The notes beneath the pieces are model-generated. The model was not told where the DNA came from. It saw nothing but the letters and a program-made list of their open reading frames with translations, and searched no databases. A stretch of DNA of 44,456 nt from Candidatus Poribacteria bacterium (GTDB lineage Bacteria; Poribacteria; WGA-4E; WGA-3G), in the NCBI GenBank assembly GCA_009843785.1, contig VYCT01000025.1, positions 1-44,456 of the forward strand, written 5' to 3'. Both the position numbers and the translations under genes were made by a program. This document shows, one piece after another, positions 24,909 through 43,913 of this stretch (positions within the stretch are counted from its first letter, which is position 1; each line of letters starts with the position of its first letter).

Positions 24909-24937
24909 ATTATAACAAAGGCTTTGCACAATGTCAA
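24909..24937 (-). promoter_or_regulatory. Perfect-consensus sigma70 promoter for the MoxR/VWA operon
   Basis: On the minus strand TTGACA (24932-24937) and TATAAT (24909-24914) are separated by exactly 17 bases, an ideal match. Transcription should start near 24902, about 65 bases before the ATG at 24835. It lies between the giant TPR gene and the cluster, showing that the cluster can be expressed on its own. Confidence 0.8.
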
Positions 24938-25024: not shown

Positions 25025-28000
25025 TTATTTTCCTATGTCTATAATTTTCAAATCGTCAAACGGCTTGCCATCCGTGTCAGTAATCCGCAGGTAGAACCCC
25101 CAACTCGATGTCTCATTGCACACTTTGACGAGGATACTGTTTTTGCCGGACCTGAGCGTTACTGGGATAGTGCGCCGATCCATGACCGCGCCACGGTTCC
25201 GCCTACGATGCGCATACATCTTTTTCTCGTTAAGCCACACTTTGCCTTGGTCATCACTATCAAAGCGGAGTTGTGCCTTCCGCTCGGCAGGTGAAGTAAT
25301 AGTTACCCACGCATACGCGGTGCGCCAATTGACATCCTTGCCGAAATCGACAAAGCCATCAAGCATCCGATCGTTCAGTTTTTGCCAACTCACCTCTCCA
25401 TCTGCCCCGTCGTATTTTGCGGTTGTGTCAACTTGCACCGCATCTTCAGGGATGTAAACTGTGTTGTAGCCGACACCCTCTGTATTGTCAAACGGACCGA
25501 GGGTTAACCACGCGCTTTCAGCAATGAAACCGGCTTTGTTGATATAGGGCGCTGCCTTTTCTCTTAAACCGTGTTCTAAACAAAATTTAGCTAACGCAAG
25601 AAGGTTTTCAGACCGACTGATCAGTTTATCAGGCAAGGCATCTAACAGTTTATCCACTATTTCAACGTAGGGCTTTTTGTCCGCCGCACGTTTGCTCATT
25701 TCAGAGATACGCGACAGTAAAAGATCCTCGATATATACGAAGGTTCTTCCAGACTGATTTATCAGGTCTAAACTGCGCTTGAACTCTCGCAGTGCTGCTT
25801 CATACTGTCCGTTAGCAAGATATGCATGCCCCAACGTCAAAACGTAAGTCCAATCCGTTTGGCTTCCTGTGGCTGTTTTCGCGAATGCTAACGCCGTTTC
25901 CGGCATAATATTTTCCTTGAGAAGCTTTTCAGCGAGTTGCTGATATTCCGAAGCGTGTTGGTTCTGGTTTACCGCTTTCTGGCGAATTTCTAACCATTTC
26001 ATATAGGCAGGCGCAGCCTTTTCGGTATTCCCCGCTTCTCTGTAAGCGTCCCCCAACATTTTATACAGGACAGCACTCTTCTCCGTTTTCGCGCTCAGCT
26101 CTTCAAGGACAGCGATGCGTTTATCAAAGTGCGCTTCACCACTGTAGAGTTTCGAGATAGCGGTAACCGCTGCATCGTGTTCTGCGGGCGTGAGAGGCGC
26201 ATCTAATGCACGACGGTACACCGCCTCTGCCTTTGATAAGTCTGCCTGTTTCTTATGGGTATCTGCCAATTGGCTATACGACATATAAACGGTCGGTTCG
26301 AGAATGATCGCTTTTTCGTATGCGGCGGCAGCTTTCGTCAGTCGATCGGGTTTATCCTGTTGACGGATTTTTCGGTAAAGGTCGCCGATTACTTTGTACC
26401 ATTCGGCGTTTTTAGGTTGCAGTTCGCTGAGTTTCTCGTATTGTGCTATCCCTTCTTCAACCTTGCCGCTGGATACATAATCTTTAGCAAGCGCGAGGCG
26501 AGTATCGATGTCATCCGGATTTTCTTCGAGTTTCTTCAGTTGTTTAGGAATCCGCGTTTCGTAGAGGTTACCCTCACGGTGTATCTCCTTTATCGCTTTT
26601 TCTGCCGCTTGTTTCCTATGGCTATCTCTGCTAACATTTGCTATCTGCTGATATGCCTTGATAGCTGCCTCGTACTGTTCTGTGGCGCGGTAACTTTTCC
26701 CAAGCATTTCGTATAAGTATTCTTGTTCCCAATTAATGCCACCCCGTGACCTGCTTCCACTTATCACCACAGCATCTTTAAAGAACGTGATCGCCGGTGT
26801 ATACATTTCACCCTCAAAACAGATAGAACCGAGTGACATAAGAAGCCACAGATCCTGTTTTTTGGAGTTTGATGAAAGCGCGGTTTCACCTTGATTCAAA
26901 AGATCGTTTGCCAATTCGGGCTGCCCGCTTTTAGTCCAGGCAGCGGCAGCGTAATAAAAACCGCGAATATTACTCGGCTGCGCTTTGCAGAGTGCTTGAT
27001 ATGCCTCAGCCGCCTCCGCGTGCTTATCTTCGTTTCGATAAATCTCGGCGATCATTTCAAGGGCAGCGGGATTATTCGCATTCTCCTCAAGTTTCTTTTC
27101 AAAAAGTGCTTTTAATTCCGCCAGTGTCCTGTGACTTCTAAAGGCTTTAATCAGGCTGTCACGCTCTCTATCTCCACTGAACATAACGATAAAACCGGAG
27201 GAGCCATGCGTCATTGACCTGGAGTTTGAATCGGATTGAGACGCGGATTCATAGAGTTCTATCGCTAAATCGTTCTCACCGATCTGGACGTATTCTTGCA
27301 TCAGTTCAATAGCGATACGATTTCGCTCGTGATTTTGGGTGGTCATGTTGAGTGCCTGTTTGTAGGCACTGATCGCTTTTTCTGATTCACCCTTATTCCG
27401 ATAATGTCGCGCAAGTTCTGCTTGCATAGTAAACGTAAGCGTATCGTTCTTTTCCGCTTCCTTTAGTACCTCCTCCAACGTGCCTTGACGACGATAGAGA
27501 TGCATCAGCTGCCGCTCGGCATTCTCACGTTCCCAATCTCTGGTCGTCATTTCAAGTGCCTTCTTATAGGCAGCGACGGCTTCGTCCAGTTTACCTTGAT
27601 TGGAATAGTTGCGTGCCTGCTCCATTTGCATCTCAAATGTGAGTCCACCTTGCGCTTCCGCCTCCTTTAGCATCTCCTCAAGTTTCCCTTGGCGGCGATA
27701 AAGATTTATCAATTGCCGTTCAATGTTTTGCCGTTCTCCGTCATGTGCTGCGTATTGAAGGGCTTCTTGGAATGCTTTTTCGGCAGCATCAAGATCGTTT
27801 TTACGAAGATAAAGCTGCCCCAGCTCCTGGTAAACCCGTCCATCCCCTGGGGTGAGTTCAATCGCTTTTTGATAATGCGTGATGGCAGCGTCAACCTCAC
27901 CATCAGCAGCGTAGAGTTTCGCGAGGCGTGAGTAGTGGACACCAACCTTTGCCTCGTCGTCAATATATTTCTGCGCAAGTTCAATAGCGTCCCCGATTCT

Positions 28001-31000
28001 TCCCGCCTTCTGGTAAGCGTCGATAAACCCATCCTGATACCTTGTGTTTTCCGGGTCGACTTCAAGCAGAGCTTTCCAAACATCAATCGCCTTATCATGC
28101 TGATTTTGGCGTGAATAGAGCGTCGCAAGTTGCGATCTGGATTCAAGATCTTCCGGCATGACTTTCGCAATCTGCTCATAAATTTCTACAGCTTTCTCGA
28201 TTTGGTTGCGCCGCATGTATTGTTGCGCCATTGACCGCTGCATGCCAATGTTTGACACTTCTATTTTGCCGCTTGATTCCGGTGTCTCTGTTAATCCGTC
28301 GCGTCTCTGTTGAATTGTCATCAACTGTTCTTGTGCCCGTTCAAGGTAGTACTGTTGCACCGATGGATCGTTGATCACCTCGGTCAACAGCACTTCTGCA
28401 TCGTCCCACATTTCGTGTTCTACATACTTCCGCGCAATGTTTTCTTTTTCCCAGTAACGAGAGCCACCGCGCCGCATCAGTTGAAGTGTACCCATTTTAC
28501 GGAGAGCGTTTCGCGATGCCTCTTTCTCACCTTTTTGAGCATACGCACTACCGAGCTTCTCGTAAAGCCCCGGAAGTTGATACGCCTCCTGGGGATCAAC
28601 GTTCTGCGTCGCTGCTTCAAGCATACGGATTTCACGTTCGCGATCAGATTTACCACGGTAAGTATCCGCTAACGTATTCAACCATCGTAATCTCATCCTT
28701 GGGGGTGCGTCTTCAAGTAGCCTCTTAACAAGCGGGTCTGCCCCTTCGATATCGTCCGTCACAATCTTTAGGGTCGCAACGAAATAGCACAACGGTGGAC
28801 TAATTTTATCTTCGGGAAGTCTGGCCTCATACTCTTTTAGTAAGGTTTTTATTTCATCTAACGTTTCATCGAATTCTGCCATTTTCAAGACGACTTGTAC
28901 CTGTATTTCTGGGTTCTTGGTTCGCAGTTTATCGCGTAAGAGTTGAATCGCCTTATCGCGCTTACCTGATGCAACGTAGGCAGACACTAATTGTTGATAC
29001 GCTCTTTCCCAGTTTATCTCAACCATCTTTTCATAAATTTCAACCGCTGCTTTGGCATTGTTATTTCGGGTACACTCCTCTGCCGCCATGCGCGCAAAAT
29101 CGTAGCTCCTGCCATATCGGGGACCTGTTTCAAGCATCTCCTTCACGGTTGAAATCAATGTATTAACCTCTCCGGCTTTGAGGAAGGTTCTTATGACTTC
29201 CCAATAGTTGGGAGGCAGGGCATTTACGTTTTCCTTAAGGAGAATCACATATTGGGTAACAGCATTTTTCGCGCGACCACTCCGCTGCAACATCTCAGCG
29301 TACCGCTGGCGAGTCATACTGTCCGTGGGACGCAGGATAAGGGCTGCATCATAAGCGTCTGATGCCTTTTGGATCTGGTTCTGACTTTCGTAAAGCGACG
29401 CTAATCTGATATGCCCTTGGAATGACTTTGGATTTCTTTCTATTGCTTCAACTAACTTGGATTCGCGGTCCCTCGTGCCTGACGCGCGACCCGCCAGACG
29501 GACTGCCTGCTGCATATTCCGAGAATGGAACAGCTGCCCGTGCTGCCCGCGTTGGTTGGCGAACCGCAAGGCGCGTGTTGCGAGCCGGGCGGCATCCTGT
29601 CCACGTCCCAATGTGCTTAGATGCTGACTTAATTGCACAAGCAAATTCGGATCGCGCTCCCGCATCGCCAAAGTTGTCGCCCTCTGAGCAACAGCAATCG
29701 CATATTGTGTAAGACCTGTCTGTTGGAGTTTTTGTGAAAACTGATACAGTTCTCGCACGCCACTGGGTGAATTTAGAATCTTGGTTACCAACTCACGGAC
29801 ACTGACAGTATCGCCTGTATGCACCACAAGTTGTAGGGTTAGGTCGTAATACTGACGCCGGTTCCTCGCGTCTGCTTCAGTGAGTTCTTTGAGGAGTGCT
29901 AACGCCGTTTTAATCTCTCCGGTCTGGATAGAAACAAAAACGGTGTTGAGTTTAAGCGTCAGATCGTTTGGAAATTCCAGTTGTAACGTTGAGAGTATCT
30001 CCTGCGCTTCTTCCCGTCTGCCTTCCCACCAGTAACAATAACTCATCGCCAGAAGCGGATAGATACGATCTCGCCCTTGTGTTGTATCCAACTGCGCCTT
30101 AAATGTCGCGTACAACGCCTCTTGTTGATCGTTCATCCATAACTGGTTGAAAAACTGTTGCAGATACTCCAACCGGTTTTGATTATAGTAGAGGGTGGGC
30201 GATGGGTAGCCTGATTGAATCGGGGTATAGCCGCCGTAGGTGTAAGAGGAAGCACTCAGTGCAACGACGCGCCGCGCCCCTGTCGTACGCGGCTTGTTAC
30301 GCTCAGAGAACTTCCAATAGAGCGCAACCGCTTTGTCGATTTGCCCTTCACGGAGGTAAATGGTCGTGAGCTGCTCATAGAAACGCTGCTGCTGAGTGAG
30401 CTGCCCTGTCGTTGATATTGGAAATTGAGAGATAACTTTTTCTGCCGCGTCGGTCTTTCTCATCTGCATGAGTATATTAGCGAGTCTCGTATTATTACTA
30501 AGGTTCAGCACGTTTACATCTTTAAGTTCATCCAGCAGCTTTTCCGCATCTTTCGCTTTTCCGCTGTAAAAAAGTCTATTTGCATATTCTATGGTATACC
30601 AATGCCGTGCTTCTGGTGTCAAGCCCGACATTTCGTCAAACTGTTTTTTCAAAATATCATAATCGAGCTGCTGCTGCCTATTAAGCCGATCCAACTGCAT
30701 GACTTGATATGCCGAATTGTTCGGAGATATTGCGATCAGTTTTTCAGTAATTTCTGCTGTCTTCTCCAAATTATTCGTCAATGTGTAGAGTGCGCCAAGC
30801 AGTTCAAGCGTCTGCGTATCCTTCGGATTTGCCGCTGCGTTTGTCTCAAACTGTTCGACCAGTTCACTGAGTTGGTTGTCCTCTTCCATGATTGTCTTCA
30901 ACCGCGCGAGCGCGCCGGCTTGTGCCTCGTCAAAAGTGTTTGGCTGCCATACCTGAGCGGTCCTAACACCATACGGTTGTCTCTGAATGTTTTGACTAAT

Positions 31001-33970
31001 ATTGCGCGCAAGATTAAGTTTGTTCATCCCATAGTTCAACGGTGCTTGGCTCGTCATGATACTGGCACTTGAGTCGGTAGACGGTTTCGGCATCTGTAGG
31101 ATTCGCTGGAAGATCGGTTTCGCACGCGCGAATTCATTCATCTCAACCAGCATTGACCCGATTTGATATAAAACAATGTGCGATTTTGGACCCGTCGCCT
31201 TTTCTGCGGCGCGATCCAGCGAAAATAGTGCCTCTTCTACCAGACCGTGTTCGATGAGGAGTGTCGCAAGTTTTATCTCTGCTTCCAGTGGCTTATTTTT
31301 CGCATGTAACACTTTTGACCATGCCTGAATCGCCTCTTGTTGACGACCCATATCAAACAATAACTCGCCCAGCTTTTGCTGTTGAGCAGGCCCTGGGTGT
31401 GCCTTGACAAGGCGTTGTTGATAAGTCAGAGCATCCGCTATATCGCCAAGGTCAAAGTTAACCTTGACCAATCTCTCCAATAGTTCTGGATGTTCGCGAT
31501 CCCTATCTAATGCGCGTGCCAGTTGGAAGCGCGCACTTGGTAAATCTCCCTCTACTCGATAAAGTTCAGCGAGGGCTAAAACGGGTCCAATGCTTGATGT
31601 GTTGGATTTTGATAGCTGCTTGAGTTTTTCTTCAAACTCTCCATGCCGTCCTGAGTCGTAATAGACTTCAGAGAGTGGTTTCAGAAAGGCGAGTTTATCA
31701 CCTAAGTTATCGCTTAACTCCCAGCACCGCCAATATTGTGAAATCGCTTCTTGAAGGCGACCTGAAACTTTGTAAGTGTCTGCTAATTCCGAGCGAATGT
31801 CTATCGCTTCCGGACGCAGACGCAGCGCATCTTTGAGGCTATCAATCGCGGCTTCGTAATCCTCTGCCTGCTTGGCGATTTCCGCGAACATCTGATGGCC
31901 TTCCGGGTTGCGCGGACTATGCGCGACGATCTGTTTAGCAGCTGTTTTCGCGGCTTCTAAATCCATCGCGTTTAGATGGAGACGTGCGATGTGCGTGTAG
32001 TATTCTCGCGCATTCGTACTGTCAATATCTACTAAACCCGTGTAGATCGCATTCGCATCATCACGCTTACCTTGTTTGACATAAATCTCCGCGAGCCATC
32101 GGTTCACAGTTACATCGTCAGGACGGAGTGCTTTCGCTTTCAAAAGCACTTCAAGGGCATAGGTGATATTCTCCAACTTCAAATACATCTTCGTGAGTCT
32201 TTTATGCTTCGCGAAGATGTCGGCATCAGAGATGCCCGGTTTCTCAAGTGCCACCTCCATCATCTCAATGTGATCTACAAGTGTCCCTTGCCGCCGATAG
32301 AGTTCGATGCGTTGGTCGTCCATCTGTTCAGCGAAAAACTCGTTCGGTGCGAGTTTTATGGCTTTCGTGTATTCTGTTATTGCTGCGTCGTACGCCTTGT
32401 TCTGCATGAGGCGTTTCGCCAATGCCTCGCGATAACGATATGCCTCCGGCATCAGCTCCACCGCTTTACGACTCGCAGTGAGTGCTTCAGTGCCGAAGTC
32501 TTTCGTATCCAGCAGCTGCGCCAAGCGATCGTAATTCTCAGCAATCCCTTTTTCACCAGCAACTATCTGATTCCATGTTTCAATCGCCTGCTCGCGACTG
32601 CCTTGGCGGATGTAAAACTCACCGAAATATTCAATATAATCCAGATTATCGGGTGCCAGTGAAATCGCCTTTTGATATGAAGCAACGGCATCCTCTGTCC
32701 ATTCATGCCCGGTGTAAATTTCGGCAAGAATGAGATATGTGCTTGCATTTTCTGGATCGCTGTCAATCATTCGTTGATAAGCTGATTTCGCTTTGCCTTC
32801 GTCCTGAAGTTCCAAGTATAACTTGCCGAGTTCGCGGTAGATACCAAAATCGTCAGGTTGTTGTTCGCTGAGTACTTCGTATGCCGCCGCAGCGTCCTCC
32901 AATTTCTCGGCACTGCGGAGCGCAGCAATCAAGTTTAGCCGTAGTTCGGCATCCGTCGGAGCCAGTTCTAATCCCTTTTGATATGCTGTAATTCCTTCAT
33001 CAAGCTGCTGGTTCTCAATATATGCAGAAGCCTGCAAACCGATAAGTTCCGGATCATTCGGGACTGCCTCAAGTTTGCCTTGATAGTACGCGATTAAGCC
33101 CTTCCAATCTGCATCGGCGGCATAAATTCCAATGATACGGTGTTGCAGGTCCTTTCGGAGCCAATTACCCGGAGCCGTTAACGCCAATGCAGCATCGTAG
33201 CGCGCTCGCGCTGCCTCGTAATCCCCTGTGTCTTCGTGAATCTTGCCAATCTCTCGCAGACTGAGACAGACGCGATACGGGTCATCTTTTTTTATCTCGG
33301 TGATTGCTTCATGCTGTGCGATGGCTTGTGGGTACAGTTCCTGCTCCCGGAAGAGGTCGGCGAGTTCAATACGGGCAAAAATGTTCTGCGGATCCAATTC
33401 GGCGATTTTCGTCCATGTTGTGATCGCGGCATCCACCCGATCCTGATGAAAATAGGCGCGACCAAGTGTTTTATAAATCGCGGTCCGATCATCAGGTGTC
33501 GCAGCTACCGTTTGCTCTGACAATGCTGCTGCTTTCGTCAGTGCGTTGATGGCTTGCTCATATTGACGTTTTGTTGTATAGATGTGTCCGAGTGCGAAAT
33601 GCGGATAGTAATCGTTTGGAGAGAGCGTAACAGCGCGTTGATATGCTTTAATGGCTTCCGTATCTTTTCCAAGGCGTTTGTGGATATGTCCCAAGATAAG
33701 TTGGAGGTTTGGCGCGTCAGGTTTCGCTGCGGCTTCTGCCTGATAATCGACGACCATCGCATCTAAACCGGCACCTTCAAGGTAAAACTGGTAGAGTCGA
33801 TCAAATGTGCTTCCCTCTTTCGGTTTACGATTCAGCATCTGCTTATAACGCTCAATAATTTGTGCCTCGTCTGTTTCATTTTGTGCGACGGTGATGGTTG
33901 TGAGACACAAGGTGTAGGCTATAAGGGACACTATGAACACACTAATTACGCATTTTTCTCGTTTGGACAT
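25025..33970 (-). CDS. Giant exported TPR protein with C-terminal jelly-roll-like module
   Basis: The 2981-residue protein starts with a signal peptide (cleavage near VAQ-NE, residue 30). It consists almost wholly of TPR units with recurring A-x-x-x-Y-x-x-A and L-x-P patterns from about residue 40 to 2750, several dozen in all. One non-TPR stretch near 1235-1265 is rich in Tyr, Pro and Ser. The last 190 residues form a beta-sandwich module with FDSDDQGKVWLN, like glycoside-hydrolase-2/PA14-type sugar-binding jelly rolls, closely matching the end of the WD40 protein at 40304-43273. TPR proteins are scaffolds; a periplasmic or surface site and a carbohydrate or protein ligand are inferred. An ideal AAGGAGGT lies six bases before the ATG. 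It is a paralogue of the adjacent interrupted TPR gene. Confidence 0.9.
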   Translation of the reverse strand: MSKREKCVISVFIVSLIAYTLCLTTITVAQNETDEAQIIERYKQMLNRKPKEGSTFDRLYQFYLEGAGLDAMVVDYQAEAAAKPDAPNLQLILGHIHKRLGKDTEAIKAYQRAVTLSPNDYYPHFALGHIYTTKRQYEQAINALTKAAALSEQTVAATPDDRTAIYKTLGRAYFHQDRVDAAITTWTKIAELDPQNIFARIELADLFREQELYPQAIAQHEAITEIKKDDPYRVCLSLREIGKIHEDTGDYEAARARYDAALALTAPGNWLRKDLQHRIIGIYAADADWKGLIAYYQGKLEAVPNDPELIGLQASAYIENQQLDEGITAYQKGLELAPTDAELRLNLIAALRSAEKLEDAAAAYEVLSEQQPDDFGIYRELGKLYLELQDEGKAKSAYQRMIDSDPENASTYLILAEIYTGHEWTEDAVASYQKAISLAPDNLDYIEYFGEFYIRQGSREQAIETWNQIVAGEKGIAENYDRLAQLLDTKDFGTEALTASRKAVELMPEAYRYREALAKRLMQNKAYDAAITEYTKAIKLAPNEFFAEQMDDQRIELYRRQGTLVDHIEMMEVALEKPGISDADIFAKHKRLTKMYLKLENITYALEVLLKAKALRPDDVTVNRWLAEIYVKQGKRDDANAIYTGLVDIDSTNAREYYTHIARLHLNAMDLEAAKTAAKQIVAHSPRNPEGHQMFAEIAKQAEDYEAAIDSLKDALRLRPEAIDIRSELADTYKVSGRLQEAISQYWRCWELSDNLGDKLAFLKPLSEVYYDSGRHGEFEEKLKQLSKSNTSSIGPVLALAELYRVEGDLPSARFQLARALDRDREHPELLERLVKVNFDLGDIADALTYQQRLVKAHPGPAQQQKLGELLFDMGRQQEAIQAWSKVLHAKNKPLEAEIKLATLLIEHGLVEEALFSLDRAAEKATGPKSHIVLYQIGSMLVEMNEFARAKPIFQRILQMPKPSTDSSASIMTSQAPLNYGMNKLNLARNISQNIQRQPYGVRTAQVWQPNTFDEAQAGALARLKTIMEEDNQLSELVEQFETNAAANPKDTQTLELLGALYTLTNNLEKTAEITEKLIAISPNNSAYQVMQLDRLNRQQQLDYDILKKQFDEMSGLTPEARHWYTIEYANRLFYSGKAKDAEKLLDELKDVNVLNLSNNTRLANILMQMRKTDAAEKVISQFPISTTGQLTQQQRFYEQLTTIYLREGQIDKAVALYWKFSERNKPRTTGARRVVALSASSYTYGGYTPIQSGYPSPTLYYNQNRLEYLQQFFNQLWMNDQQEALYATFKAQLDTTQGRDRIYPLLAMSYCYWWEGRREEAQEILSTLQLEFPNDLTLKLNTVFVSIQTGEIKTALALLKELTEADARNRRQYYDLTLQLVVHTGDTVSVRELVTKILNSPSGVRELYQFSQKLQQTGLTQYAIAVAQRATTLAMRERDPNLLVQLSQHLSTLGRGQDAARLATRALRFANQRGQHGQLFHSRNMQQAVRLAGRASGTRDRESKLVEAIERNPKSFQGHIRLASLYESQNQIQKASDAYDAALILRPTDSMTRQRYAEMLQRSGRAKNAVTQYVILLKENVNALPPNYWEVIRTFLKAGEVNTLISTVKEMLETGPRYGRSYDFARMAAEECTRNNNAKAAVEIYEKMVEINWERAYQQLVSAYVASGKRDKAIQLLRDKLRTKNPEIQVQVVLKMAEFDETLDEIKTLLKEYEARLPEDKISPPLCYFVATLKIVTDDIEGADPLVKRLLEDAPPRMRLRWLNTLADTYRGKSDREREIRMLEAATQNVDPQEAYQLPGLYEKLGSAYAQKGEKEASRNALRKMGTLQLMRRGGSRYWEKENIARKYVEHEMWDDAEVLLTEVINDPSVQQYYLERAQEQLMTIQQRRDGLTETPESSGKIEVSNIGMQRSMAQQYMRRNQIEKAVEIYEQIAKVMPEDLESRSQLATLYSRQNQHDKAIDVWKALLEVDPENTRYQDGFIDAYQKAGRIGDAIELAQKYIDDEAKVGVHYSRLAKLYAADGEVDAAITHYQKAIELTPGDGRVYQELGQLYLRKNDLDAAEKAFQEALQYAAHDGERQNIERQLINLYRRQGKLEEMLKEAEAQGGLTFEMQMEQARNYSNQGKLDEAVAAYKKALEMTTRDWERENAERQLMHLYRRQGTLEEVLKEAEKNDTLTFTMQAELARHYRNKGESEKAISAYKQALNMTTQNHERNRIAIELMQEYVQIGENDLAIELYESASQSDSNSRSMTHGSSGFIVMFSGDRERDSLIKAFRSHRTLAELKALFEKKLEENANNPAALEMIAEIYRNEDKHAEAAEAYQALCKAQPSNIRGFYYAAAAWTKSGQPELANDLLNQGETALSSNSKKQDLWLLMSLGSICFEGEMYTPAITFFKDAVVISGSRSRGGINWEQEYLYEMLGKSYRATEQYEAAIKAYQQIANVSRDSHRKQAAEKAIKEIHREGNLYETRIPKQLKKLEENPDDIDTRLALAKDYVSSGKVEEGIAQYEKLSELQPKNAEWYKVIGDLYRKIRQQDKPDRLTKAAAAYEKAIILEPTVYMSYSQLADTHKKQADLSKAEAVYRRALDAPLTPAEHDAAVTAISKLYSGEAHFDKRIAVLEELSAKTEKSAVLYKMLGDAYREAGNTEKAAPAYMKWLEIRQKAVNQNQHASEYQQLAEKLLKENIMPETALAFAKTATGSQTDWTYVLTLGHAYLANGQYEAALREFKRSLDLINQSGRTFVYIEDLLLSRISEMSKRAADKKPYVEIVDKLLDALPDKLISRSENLLALAKFCLEHGLREKAAPYINKAGFIAESAWLTLGPFDNTEGVGYNTVYIPEDAVQVDTTAKYDGADGEVSWQKLNDRMLDGFVDFGKDVNWRTAYAWVTITSPAERKAQLRFDSDDQGKVWLNEKKMYAHRRRNRGAVMDRRTIPVTLRSGKNSILVKVCNETSSWGFYLRITDTDGKPFDDLKIIDIGK

Positions 33971-34053
33971 GAAGGTACCTCCTTAAGGCGATAGGCAGCA
34001 TTGAAAAAAGTTAGGTTTCCGATGGTTTTCTGTTGCTTTCCAAAAACGGTTTT

Positions 34054-34080
34054 AAATGTTTGTCGGTTTACTTATAGTGA
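34054..34080. repeat. 27-base direct repeat, copy 2 (upstream of giant TPR gene)
   Basis: This copy matches 24972-24998 at 23 of 27 bases, with the last 13 (TTACTTATAGTGA) identical. See that copy for the bracketing arrangement. Confidence 0.6.
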
Positions 34081-34188
34081 ACGTGAGTTTGATAAATAAT
34101 TGACTAATTTTAGGGCTAACGCAAACTTTCCACTGAAAGGCGTGCGTTGATATATGTTACAGATTGATTTATAGCCCATCTTACTCTA

Positions 34189-34216
34189 ATTATAGAGATG
34201 AAATCGGAAAAGTTAA
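34189..34216 (-). promoter_or_regulatory. Weak promoter candidate for giant TPR gene
   Basis: TATAAT (34189-34194) is a perfect -10, but the -35 (TTAACT, 34211-34216) is poor and the spacer is 16 bases. The long leader makes this tentative. Confidence 0.3.
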
Positions 34217-34309
34217 GGGTAAAAGTCATATTTTTCCGAATTTCACGAAAAATACGTGCTGTGATTGTCCAATGAGCGGTTCTGGACCAGAAAATATTTG
34301 ATGAGCGCG

Positions 34310-35386
34310 CTATTCAACAGTAGGCTTGCGTTGCGTAGTTTTCCGCTTTGAAACCACTCGGTTCTTCAGTTCCAAAAAAGCACGCCGTCGTTTAATCTTC
34401 TTTAGTTGTTGCTCTGCTTGTCTCCGAGTCCACGGTCGTACTGAAAAATCGTTAAGAAGGTCGGTCCACAAGGCTTCGGCATCTGCTAACATGTCGTGTT
34501 GAGCATATATCTTGGCAACTTCCTCTTTCTCCAGGTAGCGTACACTGCGTTGCGAAAGGCGGAGTGCCCCCATCTTGAGAAGGGTGTTCTGTGCCTTCTC
34601 TTTCTCGCCTTTGTGGGCGTATGCCATAGCAAGTTTCCGATAAGTCTCCGAAAGTCTGCTGGAAGTCTTCGGATCAACACTCTCAACAGCAGATTCGAGT
34701 AGGCGGAGTTCCCATTCCCGGTCGCCTGCGACTCGGTATGCTTCCGCGAGTCTGTTCATCCACGATAGTCGCCGTGCGGCAGGTAAGACTTTAAGAAGTC
34801 GATTAATTAGCGGTTTCGCTTCTTCAAAGTTATTTGCTGCAACCTTCATTGAAGCAACGAGATACAGCAGTGCTGGATCCGCTGGCTTCTCAGCAAGTTT
34901 TGTTGCATATTCTGCTGTCAAGTCTTCTAATTCACTGGAACCCCAATAAAGTTCGGTGAGTTTTAATACAGTCTCCACTTGTGACGCAGTGCTCCCAGTC
35001 GCTAACCTGCCGCGCAAAAGTTGGATTGCCTTCTCACGTTCTCCAGCGGCAACATAGGCAGATGCAAGGTCTTGATACGTGTGGGTCCGGTTTGGATAAA
35101 CTTCAATAAACTTCTCGTAAATTTCGACTGCCGCTTCAGGGTTGTCCCCTCTGACACACGCCCGTGCTACGCTACGCGCGAATTGTTGCCCGAAATTTTG
35201 TCCCACAGATGGCACAATCATCTCCTTCGCGAGTGAAACGAGTTCATCAATTTTTTCCGCTTGGATGAAGGTTCCTATTATCTCCACATACTCCAAATAG
35301 TTGTGGGCAAGGACATTTGGGTTTTCCTTGAAAAGCACCATATACTGGTCAACAGCATCTTTTGCTTGTCCAGTCCTCTGTAACAT
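34310..35386 (-). pseudogene. C-terminal part of second TPR protein, cut off by in-frame stop
   Basis: This 358-codon frame is TPR sequence in the same frame as the 1570-codon frame upstream (35402-40114), separated from it only by one TGA and five codons. Its first residues (MLQRTGQAKDAV) align with MLQRSGRAKNAV inside the intact giant paralogue, so the natural protein runs through the stop. The ATG here has no ribosome site and is an internal Met. The frame ends near the region equivalent to residue about 1930 of the giant protein with a basic tail (KRKTTQRK). The remaining TPRs and jelly-roll module of the paralogue are absent. It is translated only by readthrough or reinitiation, or not at all. 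Confidence 0.75.
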
Positions 35387-35401
35387 CTGGGCGTAGCGGT
35401 A

Positions 35402-35404
35402 TCA
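35402..35404 (-). other. In-frame TGA codon splitting the second TPR gene
   Basis: On the minus strand the codons read ACC TGA TAC CGC TAC GCC CAG ATG, where the paralogue has Thr-Arg-Gln-Arg-Tyr-Ala-Glu-Met. The TGA sits where Arg is expected, so a CGA to TGA transition is the simplest cause. Frame and homology continue unbroken on both sides. TGA ends normal genes elsewhere here (9434-9436, 11929-11931, 43431-43433). Confidence 0.85.
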
Positions 35405-38400
35405 GGTTATGCCATCCTTGGGACTCAGAGTCAGTAATGCCTTAAATGCCTCCGATGCTTTTTTAGGTTGTTCAGTGCTTTCGTAGAAAATTGCCAACCT
35501 GCGATGCGCTTGGTGTGATTCTGGATTCTTTTGCACGGCTGCCACAAGTTTTTGCTCGCGGTCGGGGGCATCTGTGGCGCGGCTCACTAACCGCGTCGCG
35601 CTCCGAAAATTCCAAGAATAGAGCGTCTGTCCGTACCGGTCGCGTTGACCGGCGAGATGCAATGCTCGTTCTGCTATGTTTTCGGCATCCTGTTCTTGCC
35701 CAAGTCGCTCTAAATGTTGGCTCAAGTCCATTAGAAAATTCGGGTCGCGCTCACCCATCGCCAAGTCCGCCGTTTTCTTAGCAACAGCAACAGCCTGCTG
35801 TTTAAAGCCGGCATCATGGAGTTTTTCGGAAAACTGGTGAAGCTCTCGAACCCCGCTCGGCGAGTTCAAAAGTTTTGCTACCAAGTCACGAACGCTGCTA
35901 CTGTTATCTGTGTGCATAGCAACTTGTAGCATCAGGTCATAATATTGACGACGGTTCCTCGGTTCTACTTCAATGAGTTCTTCAAGCAGTGCCAGTGCTG
36001 TTTCGTGTTGCCCAGTTTGCATGGAGGCAAAGACAGTGTTAACTTTGAGTGTAAGGTCGTCCGAGAATTCTTTTTGCAACGCGGAGAGAACCTCTTGTGC
36101 TTTGTCACGTTGACCATTCCACCAATAACAGTAACTCAATGCTAAACCGGGATAGATACGCCCCCTGCCTTCTGTAGAATTGAACTCAGCCTGTAATTTG
36201 ACGTACAGGGTTTCTTGCTGATTTTTCAACAACAAGCGATTGAAAATCTGCTGCAAATACTGCAGCCGATCTTGGTTGTAATATGTCGTTGGCGAGGGAT
36301 AGGTTACCTGCATCGAGGTATAACCGGTGTAGGAAGGCGTAGAATATGCAAGTTTTGCGACGCGTTGGGGAGTTGTGGTGTTCGGTTTAGTGTGTTCCAA
36401 AAAGTTCCAAAAGAACTCAGTCGCTTTCTCAATGTTCCCCTGACGAAGGTAAGCCTCCGCCAAGGTTTGATAGACCCTAACATACTGTCGGTGTTGTTGT
36501 CCGAGAGAAGGTGCTCTGATCGTTGGTGCTCGGGAAGAGGCCGCTGAAGCAATCGGAATCGGAAATTCGGCAATAACTTTCTCCGCTGCGTCCATCTTGT
36601 CCATCAAAACAAGGACATCGACCAGCATAACGCCGGTACTGAGATCGGGGACTTGGACACCTTTAAGTTCGGCCAACAGTTTTTCGGCATCTGCTTTTTC
36701 GCCACGACGATAGAGCTTCTCAGTGTATTGTATGATATACTGATGCCGTGCTTCAGGGGTCAACTCGGTCACTTCATCCAGATGTTTTTTGAATGTTTCA
36801 TAATTGAGGTTGTCCTGCATGACTTGGTGCAACCGGACGGTTTGATAGACTGGATCATTCGGCGAAGTGGCAAGCAGCTGATCAGTAATTTTTCTTGTTT
36901 TGTCAGTGTTATCGGTCAGTGTGTAGAATTGTGCTAACAGTTCGAGCGTCTGAATATCCTGCGGGTTCGCGTTAACCTTCGCCTCAAATTGGCTAATCAG
37001 TCTATTCAGTGTTCCCTTCTGTTGCGCGATTGCCGTCAATTGGACGAGTGCCCCGGCTTGTGCCTCTTCAAAACTTGTAGGTACCCATCGCAGTCTATTT
37101 CTTCCACTAAATGGTGGTCTGAGAATCTGATTGACCAGACTTCGCGCGCGGTAGAATTTTTTCGTATTAAGACTGGAGGGTACTGATGTTGCGTAATTTG
37201 GACTTATCGTTATGTCCTTTGTCATATTTCTGGGCGGAGTGGGCATCTCCAAGATTTGTTGGAAATAGAGTTGCGCGCGTTCTAATTCGTTCATTTCAAC
37301 CAACGCTGCACCAAGTTGATAGATAGTTGTGGCATCCTGTGCATTCTCGGCTGCGCGCGCCAGCGTAAAAAGGGCTTCATCCAGTAATCCGTGGCGGATG
37401 AGCAAGGTTGAGAGTTTGAGATCTGCTTCAAGCGTCTGATTTTTTGTGTGTAGCAGTTTTGTCCACGCCTGGATTGCCTCTTGCTCACGGCCGGCATCGA
37501 ATAACAACTCGCCGAGTTTTTGTTGATGACGAGGGTCTGGCTGGACCTTGACGAGTTTCTGTTGGTAGGCGAGCGCGTCCTTATTATCACCAAGGGCGAG
37601 GTTGATTTTTACCAGTTGTGCCAGCAATTCGGGATTTTCGCGCTCCCGATCTAATGCTTGCGCCAATTGGAAACGCGCACTGGGTAAGTCACCCTCCATC
37701 TGATAGACCTCTGCTAATGCCAAGACAGCTGCTATACTGGACGTATTCACTTTTGACAACTGCTTCAATTTTTCTTCAAACGCATTGCGCTGGCCCAAGT
37801 CATAATATATCTCAGCAAGAGGCTTGACAAAAGCGAGTTTATTGCTCACATTTTTGCTCAATTCCCAACACCGCCAGTACTGTGTGAGTGCTTGTTGAGG
37901 TTTGCCTGAAAGTTTGTAAATCGCTGCAAGTTCCACGCGAATGTCGGTTGCATCAGGGCGCAGGCGAATCGCATCCTTGAGATTGTTGATAGCATTATCG
38001 TAATTTCCAGATTGTTTTGCGATTTCTGCAAGCAGCTGATATCCTTCCGGGTTACGCGGGTTATGTGCGATTACCTGCTTTGCTGCAGTTTTCGCGGCTT
38101 CTAAATCCATCGCGTTTAGATGGATGCGCGCGATGTGCGTATAGTATTCCCGGGCATTCGCACTGTCAATATTTGTTAGATGGGTGTAGATCGCATTCGC
38201 ATCATCGCGTCTACCTTGCTTAACGTAGATCTCCGCGAGCCATCGGTTCACGGTGACATCGTCAGGACGGAGTGCTTTCGCTTTCAAAAGCACTTCAAGC
38301 GCGTAAGTAGTGTTCTCCAACTTCAGATACATCTTGGTAAGTCTTTTATGCTTCGCGAAGATGTCGGTATCAGGGATGCCCGGTTTCTCAAGTGCCACCT

Positions 38401-40114
38401 CCATCGCCTCAATGTGATCTACGAGTGTCCCTTGCCGCCGGTAGATTTCAATCCGCTGGTTATCCATCTCCTCAGCGAAAAACGCGTTCGGTGCAAGTTT
38501 TTCGGCTTCCGTGTATTCGGCGAGTGCTGCAGCGTAGTCTTTGTTTACCATGAGCCGCTTCGCTAAGGTTTCACGGTAACGATAGACATCAGGCATCAAT
38601 TCAACTGTCTTTTGACTCGCGGCTATTGCTTCGGCGTGAAAATTCTTTGTGTCGAGCAGTTGGGCCAACCGATCATAATTCTCAGAAACGGCTTTGTCCG
38701 GAGCGACCATCTGATTCCATGTCTCAAGTGCCTTTTCACGATTGCCTTGGCGGAAGTAGAATTCGCCGAAATACTCAATATAGTCGAGATTGCTCGGCGC
38801 AAGCACAATCGCTTTTTGATATGCCGCAGCGGCATCTTCCATCCATTCATTGCTGGCGTAGATTTCGGCGAGGATGAGGTGTGTCCCTGCATTCTCCGGG
38901 TCGCGGTCAATCATCCGTTGATACGTTGCCCGTGCTTTGTCTTCGTCTTCCAGATGTAGGTACAATTCACCAAGTTCGCGATAGATGCCGAAATCGTCAG
39001 GGTTTTGTTCGCTCAAAGATTCATAAGCCGCCGCAGCGTCTTCATATCTTTCAGCATTCCGAAATGCTGCGATGAGATTCAAGCGCAAGTTCGCATCGGT
39101 TGGGGCAAGTTCCACCGCCTTTTGATATGTTGCGAGGCCTTCTTCGGGCTGCTGATTCTCAATATACGCGGCAGCGAGCAAACCGAGGACCTCTGGTTCG
39201 TTCGCGGTTGCTTCAAGTTTCTTTTGGTAGTATTCAATTAAGCCTTCCCAGTCCCCATCCGCAGCGTAAATCCCGATAATACGATGTTGGAGGTCTTTAC
39301 GGAGCCAGTTGCCCGGTGCTGTCAACGCCAGTGCTGTATCGTAACTCCCAATAGCAGCCGCGTAGTTGCCGTTCGCCTCGTGGATATTCCCAATTTCGCG
39401 ACGACTTAGACACACGCGGTACGGATCGTCGCCTTTGAACCGAATGATTGCCGCGTGCTGTGCGATTGCCTGTTCGTAGAGTTCCTGCTCGCGGAGTAAA
39501 TCCGCAAGTTCAATCCGTGTAAAGATATTCTCTGGGTCGAGTTCCGCGATCTTCGTCCATGCTGAGATTGCTTCATCAACCCGGTCTCGCCGGAAATATG
39601 CGCTGCCAAGGGCTTTGTAGATCGCAGTAAGGTCTTCGAGCGTACCGGTTTGCGTCTCCTCAGCGATTTTTGCCGCTTGGTTCAATGATCCAATCGCGTT
39701 TTCATGTTGAAGCAATATCGCGTGCGCCTGTCCGAGCGCAAAATGTGGGTAGTAATTGTTCGGTGCAAGTTCAGCTGCGCGTTGATAGGCTTTGACAGCC
39801 TCAGCGTCTTTTCCAAGGCGTTTGTAGATATGTCCTAAGATCAGTTGCGGGTTCGGGTTATCCGGTTTTGCTTGCACTTCTGCCTGATAATCGGCGACCA
39901 TCGCTTCTAAACCGGCACCTTCAAGATAAAACTGGTAGAGCCGGTCAAACGTGTTTCCCTCTTTCGGCTTACGGCTCAGCATGAGTTTATAGCGTTCAAT
40001 GATTTTTGCATCGTTCGCTTCATCTTGCGCAAGAAGCAGTGGTGAAAGGGAGAGGGTGAAGAGGATCAGACACAGAAGGAACGCGACAACATGAGATTTT
40101 CCTCGTCCAATCAT
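35402..40114 (-). CDS. Exported TPR protein (N-terminal 1570 residues before in-frame stop)
   Basis: The 1570-residue reading frame opens with a signal peptide (hydrophobic core about residues 9-27, then LLLAQDE) and consists of TPR units throughout. It aligns nearly end to end with the N-terminal half of the 2981-residue protein, including KIIERYKLML and FDRLYQFYLEGAGLEAMV near the start and a matching Tyr/Pro/Ser-rich break near 1230-1260. The two genes are therefore tandem paralogues. The frame stops at a single TGA, and homology continues in frame to 34310, giving about 1930 codons in total. An ideal AAGGAGGT lies seven bases before the ATG. A protein ending here would still be secreted and structured, so it may be functional despite truncation. 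Confidence 0.88.
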   Translation of the reverse strand: MIGRGKSHVVAFLLCLILFTLSLSPLLLAQDEANDAKIIERYKLMLSRKPKEGNTFDRLYQFYLEGAGLEAMVADYQAEVQAKPDNPNPQLILGHIYKRLGKDAEAVKAYQRAAELAPNNYYPHFALGQAHAILLQHENAIGSLNQAAKIAEETQTGTLEDLTAIYKALGSAYFRRDRVDEAISAWTKIAELDPENIFTRIELADLLREQELYEQAIAQHAAIIRFKGDDPYRVCLSRREIGNIHEANGNYAAAIGSYDTALALTAPGNWLRKDLQHRIIGIYAADGDWEGLIEYYQKKLEATANEPEVLGLLAAAYIENQQPEEGLATYQKAVELAPTDANLRLNLIAAFRNAERYEDAAAAYESLSEQNPDDFGIYRELGELYLHLEDEDKARATYQRMIDRDPENAGTHLILAEIYASNEWMEDAAAAYQKAIVLAPSNLDYIEYFGEFYFRQGNREKALETWNQMVAPDKAVSENYDRLAQLLDTKNFHAEAIAASQKTVELMPDVYRYRETLAKRLMVNKDYAAALAEYTEAEKLAPNAFFAEEMDNQRIEIYRRQGTLVDHIEAMEVALEKPGIPDTDIFAKHKRLTKMYLKLENTTYALEVLLKAKALRPDDVTVNRWLAEIYVKQGRRDDANAIYTHLTNIDSANAREYYTHIARIHLNAMDLEAAKTAAKQVIAHNPRNPEGYQLLAEIAKQSGNYDNAINNLKDAIRLRPDATDIRVELAAIYKLSGKPQQALTQYWRCWELSKNVSNKLAFVKPLAEIYYDLGQRNAFEEKLKQLSKVNTSSIAAVLALAEVYQMEGDLPSARFQLAQALDRERENPELLAQLVKINLALGDNKDALAYQQKLVKVQPDPRHQQKLGELLFDAGREQEAIQAWTKLLHTKNQTLEADLKLSTLLIRHGLLDEALFTLARAAENAQDATTIYQLGAALVEMNELERAQLYFQQILEMPTPPRNMTKDITISPNYATSVPSSLNTKKFYRARSLVNQILRPPFSGRNRLRWVPTSFEEAQAGALVQLTAIAQQKGTLNRLISQFEAKVNANPQDIQTLELLAQFYTLTDNTDKTRKITDQLLATSPNDPVYQTVRLHQVMQDNLNYETFKKHLDEVTELTPEARHQYIIQYTEKLYRRGEKADAEKLLAELKGVQVPDLSTGVMLVDVLVLMDKMDAAEKVIAEFPIPIASAASSRAPTIRAPSLGQQHRQYVRVYQTLAEAYLRQGNIEKATEFFWNFLEHTKPNTTTPQRVAKLAYSTPSYTGYTSMQVTYPSPTTYYNQDRLQYLQQIFNRLLLKNQQETLYVKLQAEFNSTEGRGRIYPGLALSYCYWWNGQRDKAQEVLSALQKEFSDDLTLKVNTVFASMQTGQHETALALLEELIEVEPRNRRQYYDLMLQVAMHTDNSSSVRDLVAKLLNSPSGVRELHQFSEKLHDAGFKQQAVAVAKKTADLAMGERDPNFLMDLSQHLERLGQEQDAENIAERALHLAGQRDRYGQTLYSWNFRSATRLVSRATDAPDREQKLVAAVQKNPESHQAHRRLAIFYESTEQPKKASEAFKALLTLSPKDGIT

Positions 40115-40303
40115 AAAGGATACCTCCTTGAAAAAACGCGCAGCATTATTCGGAAAACTTAAATCTCAGTACGCGGAACTATCTACTCCCGCACAACAAC
40201 TTGTAGTGGTGAGAAGGGAATTTGTGTGAGTTATATTAACAAATTTCGTTTTTGGTAGGGAATATCAATATATCTATCATACTACAGTGTAACACAATTT
40301 AAA
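40115..40303. other. Intergenic region between WD40 and TPR genes
   Basis: Besides the ribosome site of the TPR gene (AAGGAGGT complement at 40122-40129), this AT-rich 189-base gap shows no strong promoter pair, terminator or repeat. Near its TPR-gene end it shares AATGCTGC with the matching position upstream of the giant TPR gene, consistent with duplication of the leader. Confidence 0.4.
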
Positions 40304-43273
40304 TTATTGCGCAAGTCCTATTTCTTCTAACTGACTAATCTTCAAATCGTCAAACGGCTTTCCGTCAGTATCAGTAATGCGCAGGTAGAATCCCCAGCCG
40401 CCTACTTCCTCACATACTTTGACGAGGATACTGTTTTTCCCCGGTTTGAGTGTCACTGGAATCGTATAATTATCAATGACTGCAGAAAAGGCTTTGGTAT
40501 GGGTAAATACCTGTTCCCCATTAAGCCATATTTTCCCTTGATCGTCACTATCAAATTTAAGTAGGATTTCCCGTTCATCAGGTGAAGTAACGGTTGCAAA
40601 CGCATAGGCGACACCCCAATCAATGTTGTCTCCGAGACTGATATAGCCGTTGAGGATATTGTCTTCGCTTTTTTGCCAATGTATTTGTCCATCTATACCA
40701 TCATATTTTTCGGTTAGCTCAATCTGTGTTGCGTCTTCAGGAATGTAGGCGGTATTGTAACCGATACCCTGTGCATTGTCAAATGGGGTGAGCACTAACC
40801 ATGCATCCTCAATGATGAAGCCGGTTTTTTGAATATGTGATTCTGCCTTCTCAGACATATCGTTGTCGCGATAGAACCCCGCCAATAGAAGGTGAATATT
40901 TAATTGAACGCTCAGTTTGTCAGGTATAGCCTCCATCAATTTGTTCAGCATATCAAGGTAGCGTTTTTGGTCGTTGGGATTTTTGCCCATTTCAACAATC
41001 TGTGCAATCAGTTGGCGTTGAGAACTCCCAAACGTTGTTGTCTCCAATTCGCTTTTGAAGTGCGCGAACGCATTTTTCCATCTGTTTTCGAGATAGGTCT
41101 GTTCTACTGTCGAGATATAACGTGCGTTTGCCTCATTGTCTGCGGTGCGTTCAACAAATTTCAACACTGTTTCCGAACGCGCTTCTGTGTTTTGAAGTAC
41201 TTCACCAGTTTCAGGATTTCGCGCGGTCGTAAGGACTTCAGCCCAATCCCATAGGAGGACTGTACCGTCTCCACCCGCGCTAACGAGCGTTTTGCCATCG
41301 GGTGAAAATGCTAACGCATTCACACCATTTGTGTGTCCATTAAGCGTTATGAGTTTATTGCCGGTGGCCAGGTCCCATAACTCGATACCGCCGCTCTGTA
41401 TAAGTCCAGCAACAAGCACTGTGTTATCTGGTGAAAACACTAACGCTTCTGCCCATACTTCCGGCTCGTATGACATTTCCTTAAAACCGATCCGTTTCAG
41501 GTTTCCCAACAAACGGAGCTGCTTCATAGTGCCTACGGCAAGCGGCGAGCCGTCTGACGCGAATACCACATCCACAATGGGATCCCGATAACTCTGGCCT
41601 ATCGGTGGCTCTTCTTCAAAGAAGGAGGTCAATGCGATTCCGGCTTCTACGTCCAACATCTGAACGTCGCCGCCCATAGTACCACAGGCGATTTTTCCGC
41701 CATCTGGTGAAAATGTCAAGGTTCTGATGATGGGCTGGTGCTGATTTTCAGGGGCATCCTTCGGAACTATTAGAGGTATATCGAACGTTTTGCCCGTCTT
41801 TGTATGCCACAAGTGGATTGCGCCCGAACGGCTGCCAGCTACGGTTTTTGCGTCCGGTGAAAACGTAAGGTCTGAAGCACTTTGAGGTGAGGTTGCTAAT
41901 TCGCGTCCGGTGCTGACCTCCGTCAACCGCAGCATATAATTCAACCACGGTTCAGATGAATTCGTGTCTCTCCCATAGAAGACGAGTTTTGTTCCGTCTG
42001 GCGAAAATGCTAAATCTGGAAACCAATTCGGATACTTTCTGCTCTCAAGCGTCATTTGCGTCTGGAGTGTGGTTTTTTGGGATTTCTTCAGATCCCAAAG
42101 GGTAATTATCCCGTTATACGCGACACTCGCAATTGTGGAACTGTCTTTGTAGAAAGTTACGCCTCTCAGCCAGGATAGATGTCCAGTGATACGTTTCTGT
42201 AGCGGATCCCCCGTCTTGATATTCCAAAACTGAATAGTGCCATCTGTGCTCCCGCTGGCAAGCGTGGTGCTATCGGGTGAAAACGCTAACGCGTCAATAT
42301 GACTAAAATGATTTGTAAAGATGGCGAGCGACTCACAGGTAGTGGCATCCCACAATTGCACTGTACCATATTCACTTCCACTGGCAAGCAATTTCCCGTC
42401 GGGTGAGAACGCTAATACATAATCGTCTGGCCAACCGTGCCCTTTTTGGAGGGTGATCGGTTCGTTATCACTGGTAGTATCCCATAGTTCTACTGAATCC
42501 CTATTTGCACTGGCGAGCTGCGTGCTGTCCGGTGAAAACGCTAACGCTAAAACGCTGTTGTCCGCCATCACTCGATCCGGTAACCGGATCCGCTCTGCAT
42601 GTTCTCTGAGCGTGGATAACTTTTTATCCGTTCTCGTATCCCATAACGCGATGTTTCCGTTTCTATTTCCGATGGCGATTTTATCTTCCGTGAGCGCATA
42701 GGTTTCAAGATGGACATAACCGGGACGTTTGCCTAATTGACTCACAGTTCGCTTACCGGTTTCAATATCTAATCGATTAATTGTGTCCCTGGATTTATCA
42801 AGGCTGATAAATGTCTTGCCATCTTGAGAGAAGCGCATCACTGCGGCAGCAGATGGCATATCTCGGAATTCTATTTGCTGACCGGTGGCTATCTCCCAGA
42901 CTTCTACTCCGTTTTCCCAGCGACTCCCACCGAGATTGGAGAAGTAATCACCACCACCGTTGACAAGGAAACGACCATCTGGCGAAAAAGCAATGGATTC
43001 ACATATCCCCGCGAATAGAGATATTTCTTCGCCAGTTTTCACATCGTACAGCCACACACCGATGTCCGTTCCGACAGCGAGTTGCCTGCCGTCCGGTGAA
43101 AACTGGATCGCGTTAATACCTCCTTTTCCCAGTCGCGCTTTCGCCGCGTTCGGCAATTCCCACTGCGGATAAGTATCAACAATTTCGTCGGTTTGTGCAC
43201 CGGCAAACGGTAGTAGGCAGGTTATAAGATATAAGATACATACGATAGTGGTTTGCTTTTCTCGTCCGAACAT
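40304..43273 (-). CDS. Exported WD40 protein with C-terminal jelly-roll-like module
   Basis: The 989-residue protein has a signal peptide (cleavage near FAGAQ, residue 27). Some 14 WD40-like units follow at about 50-680, recognised by repeats of AFSPDG-x-x-LASG and LWD, enough for two seven-bladed propellers. A helical segment lies at about 690-795. The last roughly 190 residues, with FDSDDQGKIWLNGE and ILVKVC, closely match the C terminus of the 2981-residue TPR protein. WD40 propellers bind proteins; the end module looks like a sugar-binding beta sandwich. The start has AAGGAAA eight bases upstream. The opening MFGREKQ resembles the MSKREKC and MIGRGKS openings of the two TPR proteins, suggesting a shared export signal and a shared role. 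Confidence 0.9.
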   Translation of the reverse strand: MFGREKQTTIVCILYLITCLLPFAGAQTDEIVDTYPQWELPNAAKARLGKGGINAIQFSPDGRQLAVGTDIGVWLYDVKTGEEISLFAGICESIAFSPDGRFLVNGGGDYFSNLGGSRWENGVEVWEIATGQQIEFRDMPSAAAVMRFSQDGKTFISLDKSRDTINRLDIETGKRTVSQLGKRPGYVHLETYALTEDKIAIGNRNGNIALWDTRTDKKLSTLREHAERIRLPDRVMADNSVLALAFSPDSTQLASANRDSVELWDTTSDNEPITLQKGHGWPDDYVLAFSPDGKLLASGSEYGTVQLWDATTCESLAIFTNHFSHIDALAFSPDSTTLASGSTDGTIQFWNIKTGDPLQKRITGHLSWLRGVTFYKDSSTIASVAYNGIITLWDLKKSQKTTLQTQMTLESRKYPNWFPDLAFSPDGTKLVFYGRDTNSSEPWLNYMLRLTEVSTGRELATSPQSASDLTFSPDAKTVAGSRSGAIHLWHTKTGKTFDIPLIVPKDAPENQHQPIIRTLTFSPDGGKIACGTMGGDVQMLDVEAGIALTSFFEEEPPIGQSYRDPIVDVVFASDGSPLAVGTMKQLRLLGNLKRIGFKEMSYEPEVWAEALVFSPDNTVLVAGLIQSGGIELWDLATGNKLITLNGHTNGVNALAFSPDGKTLVSAGGDGTVLLWDWAEVLTTARNPETGEVLQNTEARSETVLKFVERTADNEANARYISTVEQTYLENRWKNAFAHFKSELETTTFGSSQRQLIAQIVEMGKNPNDQKRYLDMLNKLMEAIPDKLSVQLNIHLLLAGFYRDNDMSEKAESHIQKTGFIIEDAWLVLTPFDNAQGIGYNTAYIPEDATQIELTEKYDGIDGQIHWQKSEDNILNGYISLGDNIDWGVAYAFATVTSPDEREILLKFDSDDQGKIWLNGEQVFTHTKAFSAVIDNYTIPVTLKPGKNSILVKVCEEVGGWGFYLRITDTDGKPFDDLKISQLEEIGLAQ

Positions 43274-43430: not shown

Positions 43431-43913
43431 TCAGCCGCCCGATATCTGTACAGGTTCGGTAGTATCTGGCTCAGGGGGTGCTATTGTACTATCAAGGTCT
43501 CCATAGCAGAGCGCGAACCCCCCCTTACCGAACCATGAACCCAGCGTCAAGCGGAAATTATCAATGTCGTTGTGGGACAAAAAACCTGTCCGCTTAGTGT
43601 GATCGTGCCGCGCAACAAAATAGTGGCGGCCACGCCAGCGCAGTTCGCCGTTCATTGAAATACGATAGGCGGTGTTCGGGATAGGATCCGCATCGTTGGA
43701 ATTGACATACTCAAGCGGTATCTTAAGTGCCTCGATGAAATCCTCCAACGAACCACCTTCTCGGTAATAAGCGAGGATGTCATTCCAATCTGCAAGCCGG
43801 ACCCCTACGCCTAATGTTTCCTTACACGCAGCTTTGAGGTCGCCTGTCTCGTCCAAATCATGCGCAAGGACGTAAAAGTTTTTGTAACTCGCTGCAATTT
43901 GTTTTTTTGGCAT
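43431..43913 (-). CDS. Hypothetical small acidic protein, 160 residues
   Basis: I do not recognise this family. It has no signal peptide or membrane segment. The N-terminal half looks helical (KNFYVLAHDLDETGDLKAAC). The middle has an aromatic-rich beta pattern (NGELRWRGRHYFVARHD), and the tail is Pro/Thr-rich. AAGGAG lies nine bases before the ATG, supporting real translation, and the stop is TGA. It is the first gene of the minus-strand block at this edge, 157 bases upstream of the WD40 gene, and may or may not share its transcript. Confidence 0.7.
   Translation of the reverse strand: MPKKQIAASYKNFYVLAHDLDETGDLKAACKETLGVGVRLADWNDILAYYREGGSLEDFIEALKIPLEYVNSNDADPIPNTAYRISMNGELRWRGRHYFVARHDHTKRTGFLSHNDIDNFRLTLGSWFGKGGFALCYGDLDSTIAPPEPDTTEPVQISGG

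Follow-up and report, generated by a model that had tools for sequence, protein, structure and literature searches.

A C-terminal beta-sandwich module common to giant TPR and WD40 proteins beside a Bat-type MoxR/VWA operon in Candidatus Poribacteria

Gene content of the locus

The stretch of DNA analyzed here (the window; 44,456 nucleotides) is contig C211 of a 6.17 Mb draft genome, a 97% complete MAG of Candidatus Poribacteria, and the named relatives among the matches listed in the genome scan are all Candidatus Poribacteria. The window contains a MoxR/VWA operon followed, toward its far end, by genes for giant TPR proteins, a WD40 protein and a small protein of no known family. The features are as follows.

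13161..13985, (-): PhyH-family protein, a conserved downstream neighbor
14003..15373, (-): parallel beta-helix protein, a conserved downstream neighbor
15394..17970, (-): 858-aa VWA protein with a GATase1-like domain
18267..19205, (-): membrane protein with a sub-threshold GPDPase_memb match
19218..21284, (-): BatA-N plus VWA membrane protein (PF07584, E 6e-13, plus VWA_2)
21299..22186, (-): DUF58 protein (PF01882, E 3.3e-39)
22318..23298, (-): MoxR AAA_3 ATPase with P-loop GVPGLGKT (PF07726, E 5.8e-62)
23363..24835, (-): 490-aa protein (labeled "DUF490"), the operon marker gene, with no convincing Pfam family
24909..24937, (-): perfect sigma-70-type promoter, TTGACA-17-TATAAT with TG before the -10, ahead of the 490-aa/MoxR operon; the same element is found in relatives
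25025..33970, (-): giant TPR protein, 2981 aa, with TPR repeats and a signal-peptide-like N-terminus; orthologues in relatives have about 2830-2990 aa
25028..25528, (-): C-terminal beta-sandwich module of the TPR protein, residues 2815-2981
25529..25900, (-): helical linker of the TPR protein, residues 2691-2814, common with the WD40 protein
34310..35386, (-): TPR paralogue, part two, 358 aa
35402..40114, (-): TPR paralogue, part one, 1570 aa, stopping at an in-frame TGA and lacking the module
40304..43273, (-): WD40 protein, 989 aa, with a signal-peptide-like N-terminus, WD40 blades at about 44-676, helices at 677-815, then the module
40307..40819, (-): C-terminal module of the WD40 protein, residues 819-989
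43431..43913, (-): 160-aa protein of no known family, between the WD40-module and ECF-WD40 genes

The MoxR (AAA_3), DUF58 and BatA-N/VWA genes belong to the same operon, and a giant TPR gene is their immediate upstream neighbor, both in the window and in most of the relatives read. Bat operons are known MoxR-DUF58-VWA operons with exported TPR proteins, and because such operons are known, the remark in an earlier note on this DNA that no described system has this makeup was too strong. The Pfam scan of proteins P0004-P0013 gave no match to BatD (oxygen tolerance), and BatD does not define every Bat-like operon; judged by its genes, the cluster is best described as Bat-type, not as a canonical Bat operon. 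It departs from Bat-type operons in the size of its TPR proteins (about 3000 aa) and their beta-sandwich head, in the WD40 partners present in some lineages, and in the extra conserved 490-aa, GPDPase_memb-like and GATase-like VWA proteins.

The gene order in the related genomes G003, G005, G006 and G032 begins with an ECF sigma-TM-WD40 gene with or without the module, the 160-aa gene (in some of them), the WD40-module gene and several giant TPR genes, and continues with the genes for the 490-aa protein, MoxR, DUF58, BatA-VWA, membrane proteins, the 858-aa VWA protein, and the beta-helix and PhyH proteins. On the first map of eight relatives, seven have a giant TPR gene next to the 490-aa-MoxR-DUF58-BatA operon, separated from it by no more than two small ORFs. 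Lineages such as G018, G036, G039 and G043 encode one giant TPR-module protein together with the Bat genes and have no WD40-module gene in the stretch read. The 490-aa marker itself gave 39 matches above 450 bits in the 85 genomes of the phylum that were searched.

The second TPR gene had been taken for a tandem paralogue of the giant one. It is a paralogue, with 63% (1570-aa ORF) and 46% (358-aa ORF) identity to the 2981-aa protein, but the gene is not intact: an in-frame TGA (window 35386-35404) splits it into two ORFs. In relatives, the reading frame is open at that point and encodes a single protein of 1923-1950 aa, never with the module. The break may reflect either a pseudogene or an assembly error. 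Matches of the TPR proteins to NCBIfam equivalogs (PrsT, MamA, PilW) were put down to TPR similarity and not accepted as identity. The signal-peptide-like N-termini, judged by eye, suggest that the giant TPR and WD40 proteins are exported.

At the WD40-gene end, the window probably adjoins contig C18 of the same MAG, as judged by synteny. Both contig ends hold similar dispersed repeats (window 43914-44456 and the end of C18), which are a likely cause of the assembly break. The 160-aa protein encoded near this end is about twice as long in G005 (325 aa), G028 and G032; among 60 genomes it was found only in this genus, with related copies within longer open frames of about 500-900 aa.

Sequence and fold of the C-terminal module

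The C-termini of the giant TPR and WD40 proteins align over 286 residues with 49% identity (E 8e-84), far beyond chance. The earlier note was right that these two proteins end in a common module, and the strings it quoted, such as GKNSILVKVC, are identical in both; its estimate of roughly 190 residues did not hold, the real unit being a helical linker of about 120 aa followed by a beta-sandwich of about 165 aa. AlphaFold, run on an alignment of 53 sequences, modeled this succession of linker and sandwich with a mean pLDDT of 90; in a model of the full-length WD40 protein, the C-terminal part was too weak to place the module.

Foldseek matched the module to GH2 sugar-binding-like domains, GH3-associated PA14 domains, flocculin PA14 lectin domains and CBM35, as well as to a clostridial anti-sigma-factor ectodomain, with E of about 1e-4 to 1e-3 and TM-scores that are low, partly because the model includes the linker. 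The AlphaFold and Foldseek results place the module in the beta-sandwich fold of the GH2_N/PA14 class. The window copies reach no Pfam cut-off (at most 20.4 bits against 28 for GH2_N), and a PDB sequence search with one module or with the module profile gave only marginal matches (best E 0.0067); a two-module relative (L163) scores above the Pfam cut-offs for GH2_N, RhaB_D2 and PA14. The likeness to GH2-N, RhaB-D2 and PA14 domains lies in the fold, in motifs of the VWLNG and GKNSILVKV type and in weak profile matches, whereas the copies in the window differ in remaining below those cut-offs and in sitting on repeat scaffolds, not on glycosidases. Conservation is strong in loop motifs, GPFDN and SDDQGKVWLNG among them. 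The fold hints at sugar binding or anchoring; GH2-N-type sandwiches often merely pack against neighboring domains.

Distribution of the module and changes of scaffold

The module profile detected 75 loci, the carriers being giant and mid-sized TPR proteins (some with LamG), WD40 proteins, ECF sigma-TM-WD40 fusions and trypsin-TPR proteins, so that the proposal of different scaffolds carrying one head is upheld. The trypsin-like protease-TPR proteins with the same C-terminal module are those at L125, L137, L161 and L165. Among the matches listed, the close module subfamily occurs only in Poribacteria, with up to 14 copies per genome; genomes of genus g20 contain 3 to 14 linker-module units each. 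On the tree, modules from like scaffolds cluster, and the four scaffold states require five changes, two of them between TPR-type and WD40-type carriers. The WD40 protein of the window falls in a supported clade with ECF fusions (98% SH-aLRT, 11 rows), suggesting that it derives from, or gave rise to, their extracytoplasmic half. The G038 protein encoded next to the 490-aa gene has the same, orthologous TPR scaffold, but its C-terminal domain is an AhpC/TSA-like redoxin (E 5.5e-24; L094 15028-16287) and not the module; this redoxin head was seen in one genus.

A single-sequence search located the wider superfamily at 19 places in the window's genome, including the two in the window; the roughly 15 further proteins that bear it have PSCyt/DUF1553, LRR-dockerin, regulator-propeller and cytochrome domains, among others. 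The looser superfamily is generic because it is scattered over many unrelated proteins in this genome, whereas the close subfamily goes with these scaffolds and this neighborhood. The outcome named beforehand as fatal to the earlier note's proposal, namely, a generic domain linked neither to the scaffolds nor to the gene neighborhood, thus applies to the superfamily but not to the close subfamily.

Co-inheritance of the giant TPR and Bat genes

In a set of 36 genomes from the genus, all 20 that encode a giant TPR-module protein also give a strong BatA match, as against none of the 16 that do not (Fisher P 1.4e-10, in a test that treats as units genomes that are not independent). On the tree of another VWA gene, this pattern needs four changes, at least three of which are forced by well-supported branches; the co-inheritance rests on few independent events. 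One genome, G019, has lost the giant TPR gene and the Bat block, and the flanking WD40-module gene, one membrane-protein gene and the PhyH gene stay in place. The WD40 part is separable from the TPR and Bat genes, being kept in G019 and absent from single-TPR lineages. Of the suggested co-occurrence of TPR, WD40 and MoxR/VWA genes, the link between TPR and Bat genes is supported but the WD40 gene drops out.

ECF sigma fusions and promoters

At the end of contig C18 lies an ECF sigma-TM-WD40 gene (L091; 971 aa) that lacks the module and joins sigma regions 2 and 4, a hydrophobic segment and WD40 repeats. Sigma-70 regions 2 and 4 are absent from the WD40 protein of the window and present in the C18 neighbor and in relatives. 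Among described ECF groups, ECF57 has WD40 and ECF52 a carbohydrate-binding ectodomain (PMC8999054). The C18 gene and its relatives resemble ECF57 (WD40) and ECF52 (TM plus carbohydrate-binding ectodomain) in their architecture; they differ in that some relatives carry both WD40 and the sandwich module, and the window's WD40 protein differs in having no sigma domain. A limited literature search found no report on sigma factor-WD40 proteins in Poribacteria.

ECF sigma-TM genes are hugely expanded in the genus, with dozens at E 1e-40 or better in most genomes and at least 38 in many, including tandem arrays such as G005:C1:1524855-1573145 and G001:C16:49897-87773. Frame lengths indicate that most of these are probably WD40 fusions, as checked for a subset. 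In G019, the ECF gene lacks residues 36-128, including most of sigma region 2 (L092 12922-13079). A search for an ECF-type GGAAC promoter motif upstream of the cluster genes found nothing consistent. In several genomes, the ECF gene carries the element TGCAACC-N16-17-GCGTC in its upstream region, and a looser form of it had no match within the window.

Discussion

We favor, with a probability of about one half, the interpretation that the locus encodes a poribacterial variant of a Bat-type MoxR-DUF58-VWA envelope system with giant scaffolds and an exchangeable, ligand-binding-like head. One or more giant exported TPR solenoids would serve the MoxR/VWA machinery as scaffolds or be its clients, presumably in contact with it, in the periplasm or at the cell surface, and the PA14/GH2-N-like C-terminal sandwich would be an exchangeable head that touches a ligand, for which a glycan of the envelope or the environment is the most plausible candidate. 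If transfer ran from TPR to WD40 proteins, ECF sigma-TM-WD40 sensors may later have acquired the head and its helical linker on their extracytoplasmic WD40 part, as may secreted WD40 derivatives, the WD40 protein of the window being one. A point against this interpretation is that the WD40 part is not essential to the cluster, given the single-TPR lineages that do without it.

It is possible, at somewhat long odds, that the module binds nothing outside the protein and is a structural cap or dimerization domain closing the helical C-terminus of solenoids or propeller stalks, having spread by duplication and fusion. The helical linker preceding it in both window proteins fits such a role, as does the occurrence of the wider superfamily on unrelated exported proteins (PSCyt/DUF1553, LRR-dockerin, regulator-type propellers), which is the behavior of a generic accessory domain. 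However, the long TPR paralogue has no module and the G038 protein has a redoxin domain instead, so the solenoid needs no module as a cap, and the strong conservation of the GPFDN and SDDQGKVWLNG loops also argues against this role. We consider it improbable that the giant TPR and WD40 proteins function as surface adhesins toward a sponge host, with the MoxR/VWA operon as an incidental neighbor: repeat proteins are abundant in Poribacteria, with host interaction proposed (PMC3909097), and the module fold is near that of flocculin lectin domains, but the TPR and Bat genes were lost together and the operon hence does not look incidental.

The joint presence of MoxR, VWA, TPR and WD40 genes, along with a secondary bpMoxR profile match of the MoxR protein, recalls the beta-propeller MoxR-vWA ternary conflict systems (Kaur et al. 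2020), which are defined by a fusion of vWA to a C-terminal propeller and often have the variant P-loop GXXXTAKS (PMC7159879). Membership in that class is very improbable: none of the VWA proteins (P0008, P0009, P0011) carries a propeller, which here sits on a separate protein with a signal-peptide-like N-terminus; the MoxR protein (P0007) fits AAA_3 far better (5.8e-62 vs 2.1e-14) and has the classical P-loop GVPGLGKT; PADLOC gave weak partial matches only; and WD40 is missing from many copies of the cluster. Doubtful, too, is a role of the ECF sigma-TM-WD40(-module) protein as a dedicated switch of the TPR-Bat operon, in which the module would sense the ligand of the TPR head and set the sigma factor free for transcription of the operon. 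Consistent with such a switch are synteny conserved across several genomes, the truncated sigma gene of G019, where the TPR-Bat block is missing, and the parallels with ECF52 and ECF57 (PMC8999054) and with clostridial RsgI (PMC12203970). Against it stand the perfect sigma-70 promoter that starts the 490-aa/MoxR operon, the failure of the element upstream of the sigma gene to match in the window, the 38 or more related ECF genes of the same genomes, the reliance on one decayed case, and several cluster-bearing lineages with no ECF gene nearby.

Bat-type MoxR/VWA operons are widespread, and their clients are, to our knowledge, poorly understood. Here, one lineage couples such an operon to giant scaffolds whose head is interchangeable; operon and scaffolds have disappeared jointly on more than one occasion, which makes the scaffolds a candidate client open to testing. 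The head on membrane-spanning sigma fusions may be a clue to how signals are received by uncultured bacteria that often live with sponges. One further idea, which we hold to be rather unlikely, is that a single ligand-binding head, placed both on giant periplasmic scaffolds kept by a MoxR-VWA machine and on ECF sigma ectodomains, reads the same ligand in both settings. If so, scaffold and sensors with a common ligand would amount to a system for envelope surveillance of a new kind, one that has expanded within Poribacteria.
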